Virus record (IMG/VR): IMGVR_UViG_3300042879_002524
Location: 49,834-113,833 of that record
Direction: 5' to 3' (one strand)
DNA from: a virus
Length of the DNA stretch: 64,000 nucleotides
Below are positions 60,938 through 64,000 of the stretch, one piece after another. Below the pieces are notes generated by a model. The model was given only the letters and a program-made list of their open reading frames with translations. It had not been told where the DNA came from and made no database searches. Positions within the stretch are counted from its first letter, which is position 1. Every line of letters begins with the position of its first letter. Both the position numbers and the translations under genes were made by a program.

Positions 60938-61456
60938 TTATCTGTTTATTCCTAATTCTTTAAGAGTCTTAGGTGTGTAATTGACTTGTTCACATGATAC
61001 ACAAATGTATCGACGATCTATTCTTTTAAATATTGGAATGCCAAACAATGTGAAATCGCGTTCGACCATTTTCTCGTGAATGTGGCCGTGAATGTTATAC
61101 TTTACTCGGTAATCCATTTCCATTGGGTGAACCGGACAGTGAGATAAGAATATGCCTTTGTATTGCATCATACCGGCTACTGAATCAACGTGTTCAAGCA
61201 ATTTTCGAGTGTGGCCTAATTTATCGTGGTTTCCGAGCACTACAAACTTGCGACCATTAAGACGATCCAATATATCATAGTTGGCCTTTTCCATTGTTAC
61301 ATCCCCTAAAATGTAGGTGATATCACGCTTATGTACGGTATTGTTCCATTGAGACACAATGTATTCATCTTGTTCGGCAGCTGAAGCGAATCCTCTGTGC
61401 CGTGCCATGTTCTCATGTCCGAAGTGTAAATCTGCTATGAATCGTACCGTACTCAT
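60938..61456 (-). CDS. Calcineurin-like metallophosphoesterase (second copy)
   Basis: From ATG 61456 the product is about 172 residues. Motifs: FIADLHFGHENM (about 6-17), YILGDVTME (about 45-53), VVLGNHDKLG (about 70-79), FLSHCPVHP (about 101-109) and NIHGHIHEKM (about 119-128). This DLHFGHEN/GNHD/CPVHP layout is common for phage metallophosphoesterases of about 170-180 residues. The longer frame crosses a promoter and terminator. Possible roles include end repair or hydrolysis of signalling nucleotides. Confidence 0.88.
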   Translation of the reverse strand: MSTVRFIADLHFGHENMARHRGFASAAEQDEYIVSQWNNTVHKRDITYILGDVTMEKANYDILDRLNGRKFVVLGNHDKLGHTRKLLEHVDSVAGMMQYKGIFLSHCPVHPMEMDYRVKYNIHGHIHEKMVERDFTLFGIPIFKRIDRRYICVSCEQVNYTPKTLKELGINR

Positions 61457-61463
61457 TTTTTCT

Positions 61464-61494
61464 ATAATATAAGAAATAAAAATGAAAAACCCAA
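61464..61494 (-). promoter_or_regulatory. Class E promoter overlapping the RNA-locus terminator
   Basis: -35 TTGGGT, 17 bp, -7 TATATTAT for gene 60938. The -35 box is part of the terminator stem of the RNA locus. Confidence 0.5.
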
Positions 61495-61528
61495 GCAGTT
61501 TCTGTTGATCAGACAGTCTTACTTGGGT
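61484..61528 (-). terminator. Terminator of the RNA locus
   Basis: Perfect 7-bp stem ACCCAAG/CTTGGGT (61489-61495 and 61522-61528) with an inner CTGT/ACAG hairpin, then five T on the minus strand. Confidence 0.75.
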
Positions 61529-61797
61529 GCGATAGTTGGTTATATGAGATAAACTCAACTTCCCAATATCAAAAAAAGACCATCTGAGTGAGCAGATCTA
61601 ACGGTATGCCTGATGGTACATGACCTGCAGAATAGAATCCACAGGGGAGCAAAAGACCTACCCTGGTACGCTCGATCGGGGACACCCCAGTCCAGAAGCG
61701 TGGTAGGTACTGTCAAATTAAACTGTATCCTTTTGATACAGAGCGCAAGTGCGGCTTTGCGATGCCAGTGCTATTACCGTTAGGGTAATGCGTTTAT
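61529..61797 (-). ncRNA. Ornate structured RNA, chain of perfect hairpins
   Basis: No gene; nearly every 40-50 nt folds into a stem: ATCTG/CAGAT (61582-61586, 61593-61597); ACCTACC/GGTAGGT (61656-61662, 61702-61708) around CGCT/AGCG and GGGG-ACA-CCCC; CTGTATC/GATACAG (61723-61729, 61735-61741); CGCAA/TTGCG (61744-61748, 61757-61761); ATTACC/GGTAAT (61773-61778, 61784-61789). It ends at a terminator, and a class L box (61795-61803) stands at its upstream edge. It may continue into 61798-62052. The setting next to tRNAs in a phage recalls GOLLD-type RNAs, but identity is not established. Confidence 0.7.
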
Positions 61798-61803
61798 AAA
61801 TAT
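61795..61803 (-). promoter_or_regulatory. Class L promoter box inside the RNA locus
   Basis: Minus strand ATATTTATA between the tRNA-like element and the hairpin chain; it suggests late synthesis of the hairpin RNA. Confidence 0.45.
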
Positions 61804-61805
61804 TG

Positions 61806-61887
61806 TAGCCAGGACAGGATTCGAACCTGTAATATGCAACCATTCTGCAGGGTAGGATACCGTTTTCCTATTACGCACTACCTGACT
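61806..61887 (-). tRNA. tRNA-like element, possibly atypical tRNA-Cys (GCA)
   Basis: 82 nt with acceptor arms AGTCAGG/CCTGGCT (one G-T pair), discriminator A and a canonical T arm ACAGG-TTCGAAT-CCTGT. The D stem is GTGC/GTAT with a long loop containing GG. The anticodon stem is CTACC/GGTTG with a T-T mismatch and an enlarged 9-nt loop CTGCAGAAT, in which T precedes GCA. It is either a strange tRNA or a tRNA-like domain of a larger RNA. CCA is not encoded. Confidence 0.55.
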
Positions 61888-62052
61888 AAATTTGGTAGAG
61901 GTTTGACACCAACGTATGATCACCCATACGTCTCGTTTCTTGTGTATTTGGCACTCTACCGTTGCAAGTTCATCTTACCTTGCGCCCCCATTCGTGGAAT
62001 TATCCGACATCCCAATGAGTTTTACCGTACTATCGGAGTCAGGTAACCGCTG
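61888..62052 (-). ncRNA. Further structured RNA between the two tRNA elements
   Basis: No gene. Perfect stems GGTAGAG/CTCTACC (61894-61900, 61954-61960), ACGTATG/CATACGT (61912-61918, 61925-61931) nested in it, and GCAAG/CTTGC (61964-61968, 61979-61983). It could not be folded as a standard class II tRNA because no anticodon arm fits. Probably part of the same transcript as the hairpin chain. Confidence 0.5.
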
Positions 62053-62124
62053 TAGTCGGTACGGGATTCGAACCCGTGTGACAAGAATGAAAATCTTGTA
62101 TCCTAACCCCTAGATGAACCGACC
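62053..62124 (-). tRNA. tRNA-Glu (anticodon TTC)
   Basis: A 72-nt cloverleaf: acceptor GGTCGGT/ACCGACT, anticodon arm ACAAG-ATTTTCA-TTCTTGT region with TTC, T arm ACGGG-TTCGAAT-CCCGT, D loop with GGGGTTAGG. The sequence closely follows bacterial tRNA-Glu. CCA is not encoded. It may boost GAA/GAG decoding for acidic phage proteins. Confidence 0.9.
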
Positions 62125-62201: not shown

Positions 62202-62360
62202 TTATATGCCTGTATACAATAAAAAGTCTCGATATAAACGTTTTTCTTCTTCTGTAAACATTACATCCTGACAGGCATCTAAACTTCCTTCATGCATCAC
62301 ATTGCCATTTGCTAAATCAATCAATTGATACAATCCGGATTTTGATTCGATTATTTCCAT
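62202..62360 (-). CDS. Small acidic protein, 52 residues
   Basis: MEIIESKSGLYQLIDLANGN at the start, TEEEKRLYRDFLLYTGI at the end. A class E promoter lies 19 nt before the ATG. It is directly upstream of tRNA-Glu, so transcripts may continue into the RNA locus. Below a 60-residue cut-off. Confidence 0.6.
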   Translation of the reverse strand: MEIIESKSGLYQLIDLANGNVMHEGSLDACQDVMFTEEEKRLYRDFLLYTGI

Positions 62361-62378: not shown

Positions 62379-62409
62379 TAAATATAAGAAATAAATCAAT
62401 TGAATCCAA
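62379..62409 (-). promoter_or_regulatory. Class E promoter for gene 62202 and the RNA locus
   Basis: -35 TTGGAT, 17 bp, -7 TATATTTA. Confidence 0.62.
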
Positions 62410-62412
62410 CCT

Positions 62413-64000
62413 TTATCTGATAATTGTTATGTGACCATAATCGTTGTAACGAGCATCATTAACTGCATCACCAAATGTTAATTTCCATATGTAGATGCCT
62501 TCGGATACATATCGACCATTATAAGTCCCATCCCATCCCGTTAACATGTCACGCGATTCCCATATTAATTCTCCCCAACGATTGTATATTTCAAGTTGGA
62601 AATCATATGCATCGAATCCTGCAGTAAATACCGGTTTCCATGTTTGGTTGAATTCGTCGCCATCTGGTGTAAAAGAGTTTGGCATATAGTAAATAGTTTC
62701 TGGACAATTGGCAATTGATATGGTTGTTTGTTCTGGTTCTGATACACATCCGTTAGACACATGCACGGCTGTTAATGTGTAAATTCCTTCTGTTTGCCAG
62801 GTGAATAATGGAGCATTTAATAGAATAGTATCGTTTTGAAAATACCATTCGGTGGATCCTGGTATTGATGGTACTACCGAATACATAAAGGTTACCGAAT
62901 CACCATCACATATTTGATAAAACTGATCCGATGTTATGTCTAAAATAACAGGTTTCTCATTCACTTGCACCGTGATAGTATCATCAAACACACATCCACT
63001 CTGCGTATATGTATAAACTACAGCATTTGCAGCGGTATCAGCTATACCCGGACAGAATTCATCGATGTTAACTCCTGGTCCGGAATATACTCCATTGAGT
63101 GGTAATGCGGTTAATGGCACACAGTCCGAATCCGTACAGAAAGGTCCAATTTGGTCAATTTGTGGTTCTATGTTCAATACAAACAAATCAACTGACACTA
63201 GTGCACTTTCACAACCATCAGCATCCGTTGCAATAACATTAACTGCATTTGAAACCAATCCCGCAGCTGCATTAGTCCAATCTACAACAACGGCTGTCGA
63301 TCCTTGGCCAAAGGTTATGTTGCCCGAACTATTCCATGCATATGTAAATCCAGCACCTAAATCGGCAACAGAATATATTTCAGCATTTGCTTGAAAACAT
63401 GCGGTATCACTGAATACAATAGGTCCGACAATAATGGGTGGAGGATCTGTTAGTGTAACATTGGTAGTAACATCACATCCAGCAGCATCTTCAATTTCGA
63501 CTGTGTACGTACCAGCACATAGGCCTGTGATAGTTGATGTTGTTTGTCCCGTGGTCCACGTATATGTATATCCAGGAGTACCATTTAATGGTGTTACTGT
63601 GATCTCCCCATTGCAGTCTCCGATACAAACCGGATCCAACACAACTACATCCGGTGCTGATAAGTTAGGCGGACCTGGTTGTACAAACACAGTATCTGGT
63701 CCTAATCCTACAATTGCATTGCAAGAATTCCAACCGGTGTTGCATGCCGGATAAACTAGTTGGCAAGTATAATTTGCACCCGCTGCCGGTGGCGTAACAG
63801 TGATTGTGGTTCCTTGGCCTATAGGCACGGGATTGCCAACTAGATACCATGTAGGTACCGGCAATACAGCAGGGCCAGCTGGCGTATATCTCCAAGCATC
63901 ATTGTTTGCCGTCCACTGTGTTGAATTACGTCCTGGTACTGTTACTGCTGCGGTACCTGTTTGATTATGTACTCCCTGCACTGCAGTTCCACCAGCCCAT
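62413..64000 (-). CDS. Surface protein with SprB-like repeats and a type IX sorting domain (partial)
   Basis: The frame is open to the right edge, so the N-terminus is missing; over 525 residues are visible, starting AGGTAVQGVHNQTG. SprB-like repeat: GDCNGEITVTPLNGTPGYTY then TITGLCAGTYTVEIEDAAGC. Several PKD/Ig-like cysteine-paired domains follow. The last 85 residues (YMPNSFTPDGDEFNQTWKP, YDFQLEIYNRWGELIWES, GWDGTYNGRYVSEGIYIWKL, GHITIIR) form the gliding-motility-type C-terminal domain that directs type B cargo through the Bacteroidota type IX secretion system. Either a phage-borne cell-surface protein or flanking host DNA; no boundary is seen. Confidence 0.88.
   Translation of the reverse strand, partial: WAGGTAVQGVHNQTGTAAVTVPGRNSTQWTANNDAWRYTPAGPAVLPVPTWYLVGNPVPIGQGTTITVTPPAAGANYTCQLVYPACNTGWNSCNAIVGLGPDTVFVQPGPPNLSAPDVVVLDPVCIGDCNGEITVTPLNGTPGYTYTWTTGQTTSTITGLCAGTYTVEIEDAAGCDVTTNVTLTDPPPIIVGPIVFSDTACFQANAEIYSVADLGAGFTYAWNSSGNITFGQGSTAVVVDWTNAAAGLVSNAVNVIATDADGCESALVSVDLFVLNIEPQIDQIGPFCTDSDCVPLTALPLNGVYSGPGVNIDEFCPGIADTAANAVVYTYTQSGCVFDDTITVQVNEKPVILDITSDQFYQICDGDSVTFMYSVVPSIPGSTEWYFQNDTILLNAPLFTWQTEGIYTLTAVHVSNGCVSEPEQTTISIANCPETIYYMPNSFTPDGDEFNQTWKPVFTAGFDAYDFQLEIYNRWGELIWESRDMLTGWDGTYNGRYVSEGIYIWKLTFGDAVNDARYNDYGHITIIR

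Follow-up and report, generated by a model that had tools for sequence, protein, structure and literature searches.

The nearest known arrangement to the locus described here is, by analogy, the tRNA operon of phage T4, in which the RNAs rnaD and rnaC follow tRNA-Arg. The start of rnaD coincides with the end of tRNA-Arg; the last element of rnaC is a T arm (CCGGGTTCGAATCCCGG). The two, known as species 1 and 2 RNAs, belong to the late RNAs and have no known function (PMC9697503). Large structured phage RNAs of the GOLLD and ROOL classes, which contain pseudoknots, are encoded near tRNA islands, and tRNAs occur in the GOLLD linker (PMC12286853).

The locus described here shares the niche of GOLLD and ROOL, but its units differ from them: they are about 160 and 230 nt long, separable, and without an Rfam match. 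The likeness to T4 is in position: both are myophage tRNA operons in which the last tRNA is immediately followed by small and presumably stable RNAs. The T4 operon has one such RNA pair, and no array of tRNA-chassis RNAs was seen in it. The covariance models R1, R2, and R3 found no match in the T4 region (L095), and no sequence relation was shown. We know of no function for the T4 species 1 and 2 RNAs, GOLLD, or ROOL, and the locus adds independent, covariation-supported RNA classes to their niche. No literature matching RNA A, RNA BC, or the chassis RNAs was found among open-access papers.

The window, which is the whole 64,000-nucleotide stretch of DNA analysed, forms the right-hand 64 kb of a 113,833-bp IMG/VR virus record. 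Among the proteins encoded are baseplate wedge subunits, an SbcC-like nuclease, and a phage sigma factor; one protein of the record contains CHU_C and SprB domains, both characteristic of Bacteroidota. Judged by the baseplate protein, the closest phage records are those of Microcystis phage Mel-JY01 (55% amino acid identity), an uncultured phage (43%), and Flavobacterium phage immuto (42%). We infer that the virus is a myophage of Bacteroidota and distant kin of Flavobacterium Immutovirus. The tRNA and non-coding RNA unit is positioned at the end of the 113.8-kb contig and reads leftward. The gene order of phage immuto, tRNA-Glu, a small RNA, tRNA-Gln, and a calcineurin-like phosphoesterase, is close to that of the window. 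The combination of an SprB repeat with CHU_C type IX secretion signal domains, encoded at 62413-63981(-), is unusual in a phage; the protein is possibly a tail or surface protein acquired from a Bacteroidota host.

Content of the interval

The earlier note described 640 bp without a gene, and there is indeed no credible protein gene in them: the open reading frames wholly inside the interval are no longer than 70 aa. The phosphoesterase reading frame that enters from the left starts at the ATG at 61456, where its alignment with relatives begins. A homologue search seeded with this flanking phosphoesterase gave 22 viral loci, and their comparison revealed three conserved pieces (A, B, and C) in the supposedly empty interval. 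Further homologues were collected by pattern scans of viral contigs, nhmmer, and covariance models. Nearly all of the IMG/VR loci with A, B, or C are within phage tRNA arrays. The interval holds not one giant RNA but at least four: tRNA-Glu, RNA A, a tRNA-like RNA, and RNA BC (Table 1).

Table 1. Positions of RNA elements and promoter-like motifs in the window.
Feature	Position	Strand	Support or remark
Promoter-like 12-mer ATTTCTTATATT	62381..62392	(-)	Exact match; precedes 52-aa ORF 62202-62360
tRNA-Glu (UUC)	62052..62124	(-)	ARAGORN; Rfam 57.8 bits
RNA A (~160 nt)	61889..62053	(-)	Model R2 175.5 bits; alignment A3; pair counts; boundaries
Kissing strand 1 of A, TCCGATA, P1 loop	62031..62037	(-)	Pairs with 62003-62009; compensated in relatives
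Kissing strand 2 of A, TGTCGGA, P2 loop	62003..62009	(-)	Pairs with 62031-62037; compensated in relatives
tRNA-chassis RNA (82 nt)	61806..61887	(-)	Rfam tRNA 28.7 bits; family of at least 204; fold; relatives L097:9713 and L141
Spacer; two or three hairpins, of which that at 61741-61723 is terminator-like	61717..61805	(-)	No conserved counterpart found
Module B, P1-P2-P3, invariant ACGC / GGA / GCGTACCAGG	61646..61716	(-)	Model R1 94.8 bits, E 8e-21; alignment A1; pair counts
Module C	61484..61652	(-)	nhmmer E 7e-40; alignment A2; pair counts
Second copy of 12-mer ATTTCTTATATT	61466..61477	(-)	Between BC terminator and phosphoesterase start 61456

The fold of the 645-nt leftward strand is more stable than those of 20 out of 20 dinucleotide shuffles (z -3.06), and that of the 411-nt 3' part beats 100 out of 100 shuffles (z -3.18). 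The perfect stems described earlier reflect an interval that is structured, but some of them are in the spacer, where no conservation was found. In the single-sequence minimum free energy fold of the 645 nt, the BC region is paired to the tRNA-like RNA, a pairing that the comparative structure does not support, and this fold was dropped.

The canonical tRNA-Glu recognised in the earlier note is the sole Rfam match in the window interval at gathering scores, and nothing credible besides two tRNA matches appears in an 851-nt stretch at E<=10. GOLLD and ROOL have no Rfam match at E<=10 in this stretch or at E<=1 in six homologous loci. A tmRNA was rejected, with no Rfam match in the window or the six loci and no ARAGORN tmRNA call in the window, as were introns, with no match to an Rfam intron family in the same sequences. 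The suggestion of one large, ornate RNA of GOLLD or ROOL type was not supported, as the locus lacks an Rfam match, is modular, and has tRNAs or tRNA-like RNAs between its parts. What stands of the earlier description is a structured, leftward phage RNA locus that adjoins a tRNA and is outside the known classes.

RNA A and RNA BC

RNA A is composed of hairpins P1 and P2, linked by a kissing helix of 6-7 bp, a hairpin P3, and the closing stem P4 (GGTAGAG/CTCTACC). It is present in 14 loci among the IMG/VR homologues. The 5' end of A in the window is directly at the discriminator base of tRNA-Glu. In 13 of the 14 loci, A begins exactly at the discriminator base of a tRNA or tRNA-like RNA. The T4 species 1 and 2 RNAs hold the same position in a myophage tRNA operon, adjoining the 3' end of a tRNA. 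The downstream end stops a few bases short of the next tRNA or tRNA-like RNA, also in 13 of 14 loci, and the identity of the bordering tRNAs varies between loci.

The kissing helix is the strongest single item of covariation. The window sequence TCCGATA/TGTCGGA is replaced by TCCTATA/TATAGGA in L070, ACTTGC/GCAAGT in L131, and TCAAAT/ATTTGG in L200. The strands of L131 and L200 are wholly different in sequence and still complementary, and both loci were detected by a covariance model that lacked the kissing helix. Changes on both sides affect 11 pairs of A (6.5 in shuffled alignments) and 34 cells (10.6 shuffled). A structure-free scan of all column pairs placed structural pairs near the top, including the kissing pair 21-51 of A, among other correlated columns.

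Module B was found in 29 loci (E<=2e-13), plus two diverged ones; 27 of the loci are from distinct patterns, or fewer without copies, and 26 are in the alignment. ARAGORN detects tRNA genes in 24 of the 26 distinct aligned loci, and a tRNA is often directly before B (L005, L046, L075, and L085). In the records searched whole, B has one copy wherever it is found. The alignment contains 26 invariant columns. Helix 1 is paired in 100% of cells, with C-G, U-A, and A-U exchanges, and there are 33 double-change cells versus 11.6 in shuffled alignments. Column pair 29-44 alternates between U-G and C-A, which is an isosteric exchange.

Module C, found in about 20 distinct loci, is formed by a hairpin, a second domain related to B, a multibranch domain (GATATTGG/CCAACTATC) that is short in the window, and a terminal hairpin followed by a T run. 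Both sides change in 28 of the 44 pairs of C (17.2 shuffled) and in 113 cells (36.2 shuffled), and the covariation score is 0.433 versus 0.172. When the partner is slid by one column, pairing drops from 97% to 34-43%. The covariation in the homologues, which the earlier note had named as a check, is strong in A, B, and C, well beyond controls. The shuffles among these controls leave relatedness in place, an objection that weighs less on the slid controls and on helices whose sequence is replaced entirely.

Together, B and C form RNA BC of about 230 nt, which ends in a decorated terminator hairpin. The terminator claimed in the earlier note is real in its stem, ACCCAAG..CTTGGGT followed by TTTTT, which was recovered by the alignment fold and pair counts across 19 loci. 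An internal loop interrupts the stem, and a simple terminator scan misses the 3' stem for this reason. The B model match in L097 falls inside the C match, which makes it probable that B and the second domain of C arose as copies of a single module. The GGCATACCGTAAGATCTGCTC motif of the second domain also recurs in other settings, and there is a shorter variant of B with the loop TACCCATNAGAACA (L112:4453, L143:6791, L117:1657, L097:2637, and L135:5589 for the motif or the variant).

The modules combine in several ways. A was found but BC was not in L007, L030, and L131, and the reverse holds for L042, L043, and L073; contig ends or locus limits could hide partners in both groups. B is joined to other 3' modules in L046, L075, and L085, and to only the terminal hairpin of C in L077. 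The RNA between tRNA-Glu and tRNA-Gln of phage immuto contains GGACTGGGGTGTCCCCGGTCG, in which 20 of 21 bases are identical to P3 of the window B; the full B model found no match in this phage. A blastn search with BC found no match in 50,697 phage records, and the strict B pattern had none in one genome per species of 84,980 bacterial and archaeal species.

The tRNA-chassis RNA and its relatives

The atypical tRNA-like fold described earlier was recovered as an RNA with a score just under the Rfam tRNA gathering score of 29 and without an ARAGORN call. It has a 7-bp acceptor (AGTCAGG/CCTGGCT) and a T arm (ACAGGTTCGAATCCTGT) as in a tRNA, whereas the anticodon region is replaced and includes a hairpin, TAGGA/TCCTA; no 5-bp anticodon stem with U33 could be drawn by hand. 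In two 121-nt relatives the hairpin is fully compensated, with TGTGA/TCACA and TGAGA/TCTCA.

Viral loci were searched for further chassis RNAs by requiring a T arm followed by CCTG[AG]CT, with [AG]GTC[AG]GG upstream. The family has at least 204 distinct members, and nearly all of them measure 66 to 191 nt; the search pattern itself accounts in part for the constancy of their acceptor and T arm. The D arm is present in 161 of the 203 chassis RNAs examined, and its stem occurs in the compensated forms GCG/CGC, GTG/CAC, GCT/AGC, and GGT/ACC. ARAGORN calls only 40 of the at least 204 members, with many different anticodons. Among the matches listed, 154 inserts fall into 128 groups, 111 of them singletons, and up to seven copies are found in one locus. 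Several copies each, with a constant AGTCAGG/CCTGACT acceptor, are present in L104, L110, L125, L151, and L210. In the set of genomes from 84,980 species, the chassis 5' end was found in three contigs of <=8 kb in metagenome-assembled genomes (L238, L239, and L240).

The inserts were considered as antisense guides and as tag reading frames, and both ideas were rejected. Their longest exact match to the flanking DNA of their own locus averages 9.8 nt versus 9.9 nt for shuffled inserts, and their stop frequency equals that of shuffles. Since folding of the inserts is weak (mean z -0.6), insert folds are claimed only where relatives show compensation.

Chassis RNAs resemble class II tRNAs of the Leu type in keeping the acceptor, the T arm, and mostly a Leu-type D arm (GTGGCGGAATTGGTAGACGC), and they differ from tRNAs in that most have no anticodon arm recognised by ARAGORN. 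The tRNA-like domain of tmRNA likewise has an insert in place of the anticodon part; however, the acceptor pair 3-70 is G-U in tmRNA and, as read from the sequence, U-A in the chassis, and the inserts carry no sign of coding. Mimicry of tRNA is also shared with the bacterial Y RNA YrlA, but the one chassis RNA that scores with this model (L002) reaches 26 bits, far under the gathering score of 69. A YrlA/Ro60 particle was rejected for the window phage, as there is no Rfam YrlA match in the window and no TROVE/Ro60 gene in the 113.8-kb record, which may be incomplete.

According to ARAGORN, some chassis RNAs have stop-reading anticodons (CUA and UCA) and others Leu(UAA); these are at L183:4133(+), L030:816(+), L148:4813, L154:6895, and L181:4390. 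Those with CUA or UCA may be suppressor tRNAs or resemble them by chance. Long tRNA-like RNAs of a second kind, of 125 and 151 nt, are found at L036:11796 and L070:485 (minus-strand numbering); they share a GGTCGCTCC..GAGTGG motif, and their acceptor is AGCTCCA/TGGAGCT or GGCTCTA/TAGAGCT.

Proposed expression and alternative readings

The 12-mer ATTTCTTATATT has eight matches in the window at <=1 mismatch versus 3.0 expected, a number reached by none of 100 shuffles. It is a candidate phage promoter, and its copy ahead of the 52-aa reading frame a candidate leftward start. The 12-mer also occurs in L232 near 735, and it is positioned just upstream of genes in the window and in phage immuto. 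The boundaries of A and B, the genes after BC, and the positions of the 12-mer suggest one leftward unit from about 62.38 to 61.48 kb. The terminator-like hairpin of the spacer counts against a single unit, as it might set BC apart from the tRNA portion.

Points at tRNA boundaries such as the ends of A are exactly where RNase Z and RNase P cut. As A is bounded by a tRNA 3' end and the next tRNA or tRNA-like RNA, the two enzymes should release it. A leftward precursor would carry tRNA-Glu, RNA A, the tRNA-chassis RNA, and RNA BC, and host tRNA enzymes would separate the parts. RNase Z, cutting after the discriminator of tRNA-Glu, would set the 5' end of A, RNase P, cutting ahead of the chassis RNA, would free its 3' side, and the terminal hairpin of BC would terminate transcription. 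The freed RNAs are predicted to fold, A through its kissing-loop pseudoknot and BC as two related modules with a multibranch domain. In infected cells, A, the chassis RNA, and BC may then be trans-acting, comparable to the species 1 and 2 RNAs of the T4 tRNA operon, with tRNA-handling or defence factors as putative targets that would be bound or decoyed. We give a probability of about 0.6 to the reading of the locus, made from sequence comparison, as a phage tRNA and non-coding RNA unit that yields trans-acting stable RNAs. A decoy role towards tRNA-handling or defence factors is a conjecture that we hold to be rather doubtful. Slightly less doubtful, and still tentative, is the idea that large phages of Bacteroidota possess a chassis system, in which a constant acceptor and T arm carry a hypervariable insert and A, B, and BC are partners, so that the RNAs could serve as interchangeable decoys or adapters against host factors. 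Such RNAs might be matured and stabilised as tRNAs and would form a natural arsenal of RNAs on a tRNA scaffold.

A and BC could instead be parts of a single RNA in the style of GOLLD and ROOL that forms homo-oligomers, with A as the 5' domain, BC as the conserved 3' domain, and a tRNA or tRNA-like RNA in a variable linker. In GOLLD, which is found near phage tRNA islands, the 3' region is conserved, the 5' region is less so, and the linker sometimes contains tRNAs (PMC12286853). A is upstream of B in the window and in L005, L036, L053, L070, L090, and L094. However, neither GOLLD nor ROOL is matched, A and BC are also found apart, canonical tRNAs with processing-type boundaries lie between them in L005 and L036, and about 700 nt separate them in L094, which makes this alternative unlikely. 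We consider it equally unlikely that A, B, and C are spacers, processing signals, or terminators that act in cis in the tRNA operon without a function of their own. Their location between tRNAs and the terminator formed by the last hairpin of C would fit, but spacers need not keep a kissing pseudoknot or invariant loop bases such as those in the 26 invariant columns of B, and most tRNAs in these arrays have no such element between them.

Somewhat less probable again is that the tRNA-like RNA is simply a decaying or intron-bearing tRNA gene, as suggested by its near-threshold score and by chassis members that resemble plain tRNAs, for example Lys(UUU) in L125. Against this, at least 204 distinct members keep the acceptor and T arm, in part because of the search; the D arm persists in several compensated stem forms in 161 of them; the window hairpin is compensated in two relatives; and no intron family matches. 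The sharply conserved internal loops and the terminator at the end would suit a riboswitch that controls the downstream gene in cis. BC is followed by a phosphoesterase, a small membrane protein, or a tRNA, depending on the phage, which renders a cis-switch unlikely, and the next gene in the window has a separate promoter-like motif ahead of it; we regard the riboswitch as highly improbable. The reading as a unit producing trans-acting RNAs is the one that we prefer.

The locus contains real, previously unannotated structured phage RNAs, which constitute new RNA classes of a known kind; the chassis family could be new. That dozens of related viruses conserve the folds points to a set of such RNAs in use by phages. 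The tRNA boundaries of the new RNAs predict how they are made, and the covariance models allow their annotation. Their function can be tested in culture, since Flavobacterium phage immuto, which infects Flavobacterium sp. LMO8, is a relative that carries a B-like RNA. If chassis RNAs were variable decoys on a tRNA frame, they would represent a strategy new to phages and account for many of the odd tRNA calls in phage genomes.

Additional conserved intergenic pieces of tRNA arrays are probably more RNA families. One is upstream of B in L036, L043, and L044 (TTTGACARTTAAGAG..AACTCTCC..GGTGGCATCGGTGACC), another is upstream of B in L042, L048, L051, and L092 (GCAAAAAACAYGG..GATGGGTTTTA), and a third adjoins tRNA-Leu in L002 and L006 (AAAGGAAGCACAAGAGAGTCC).
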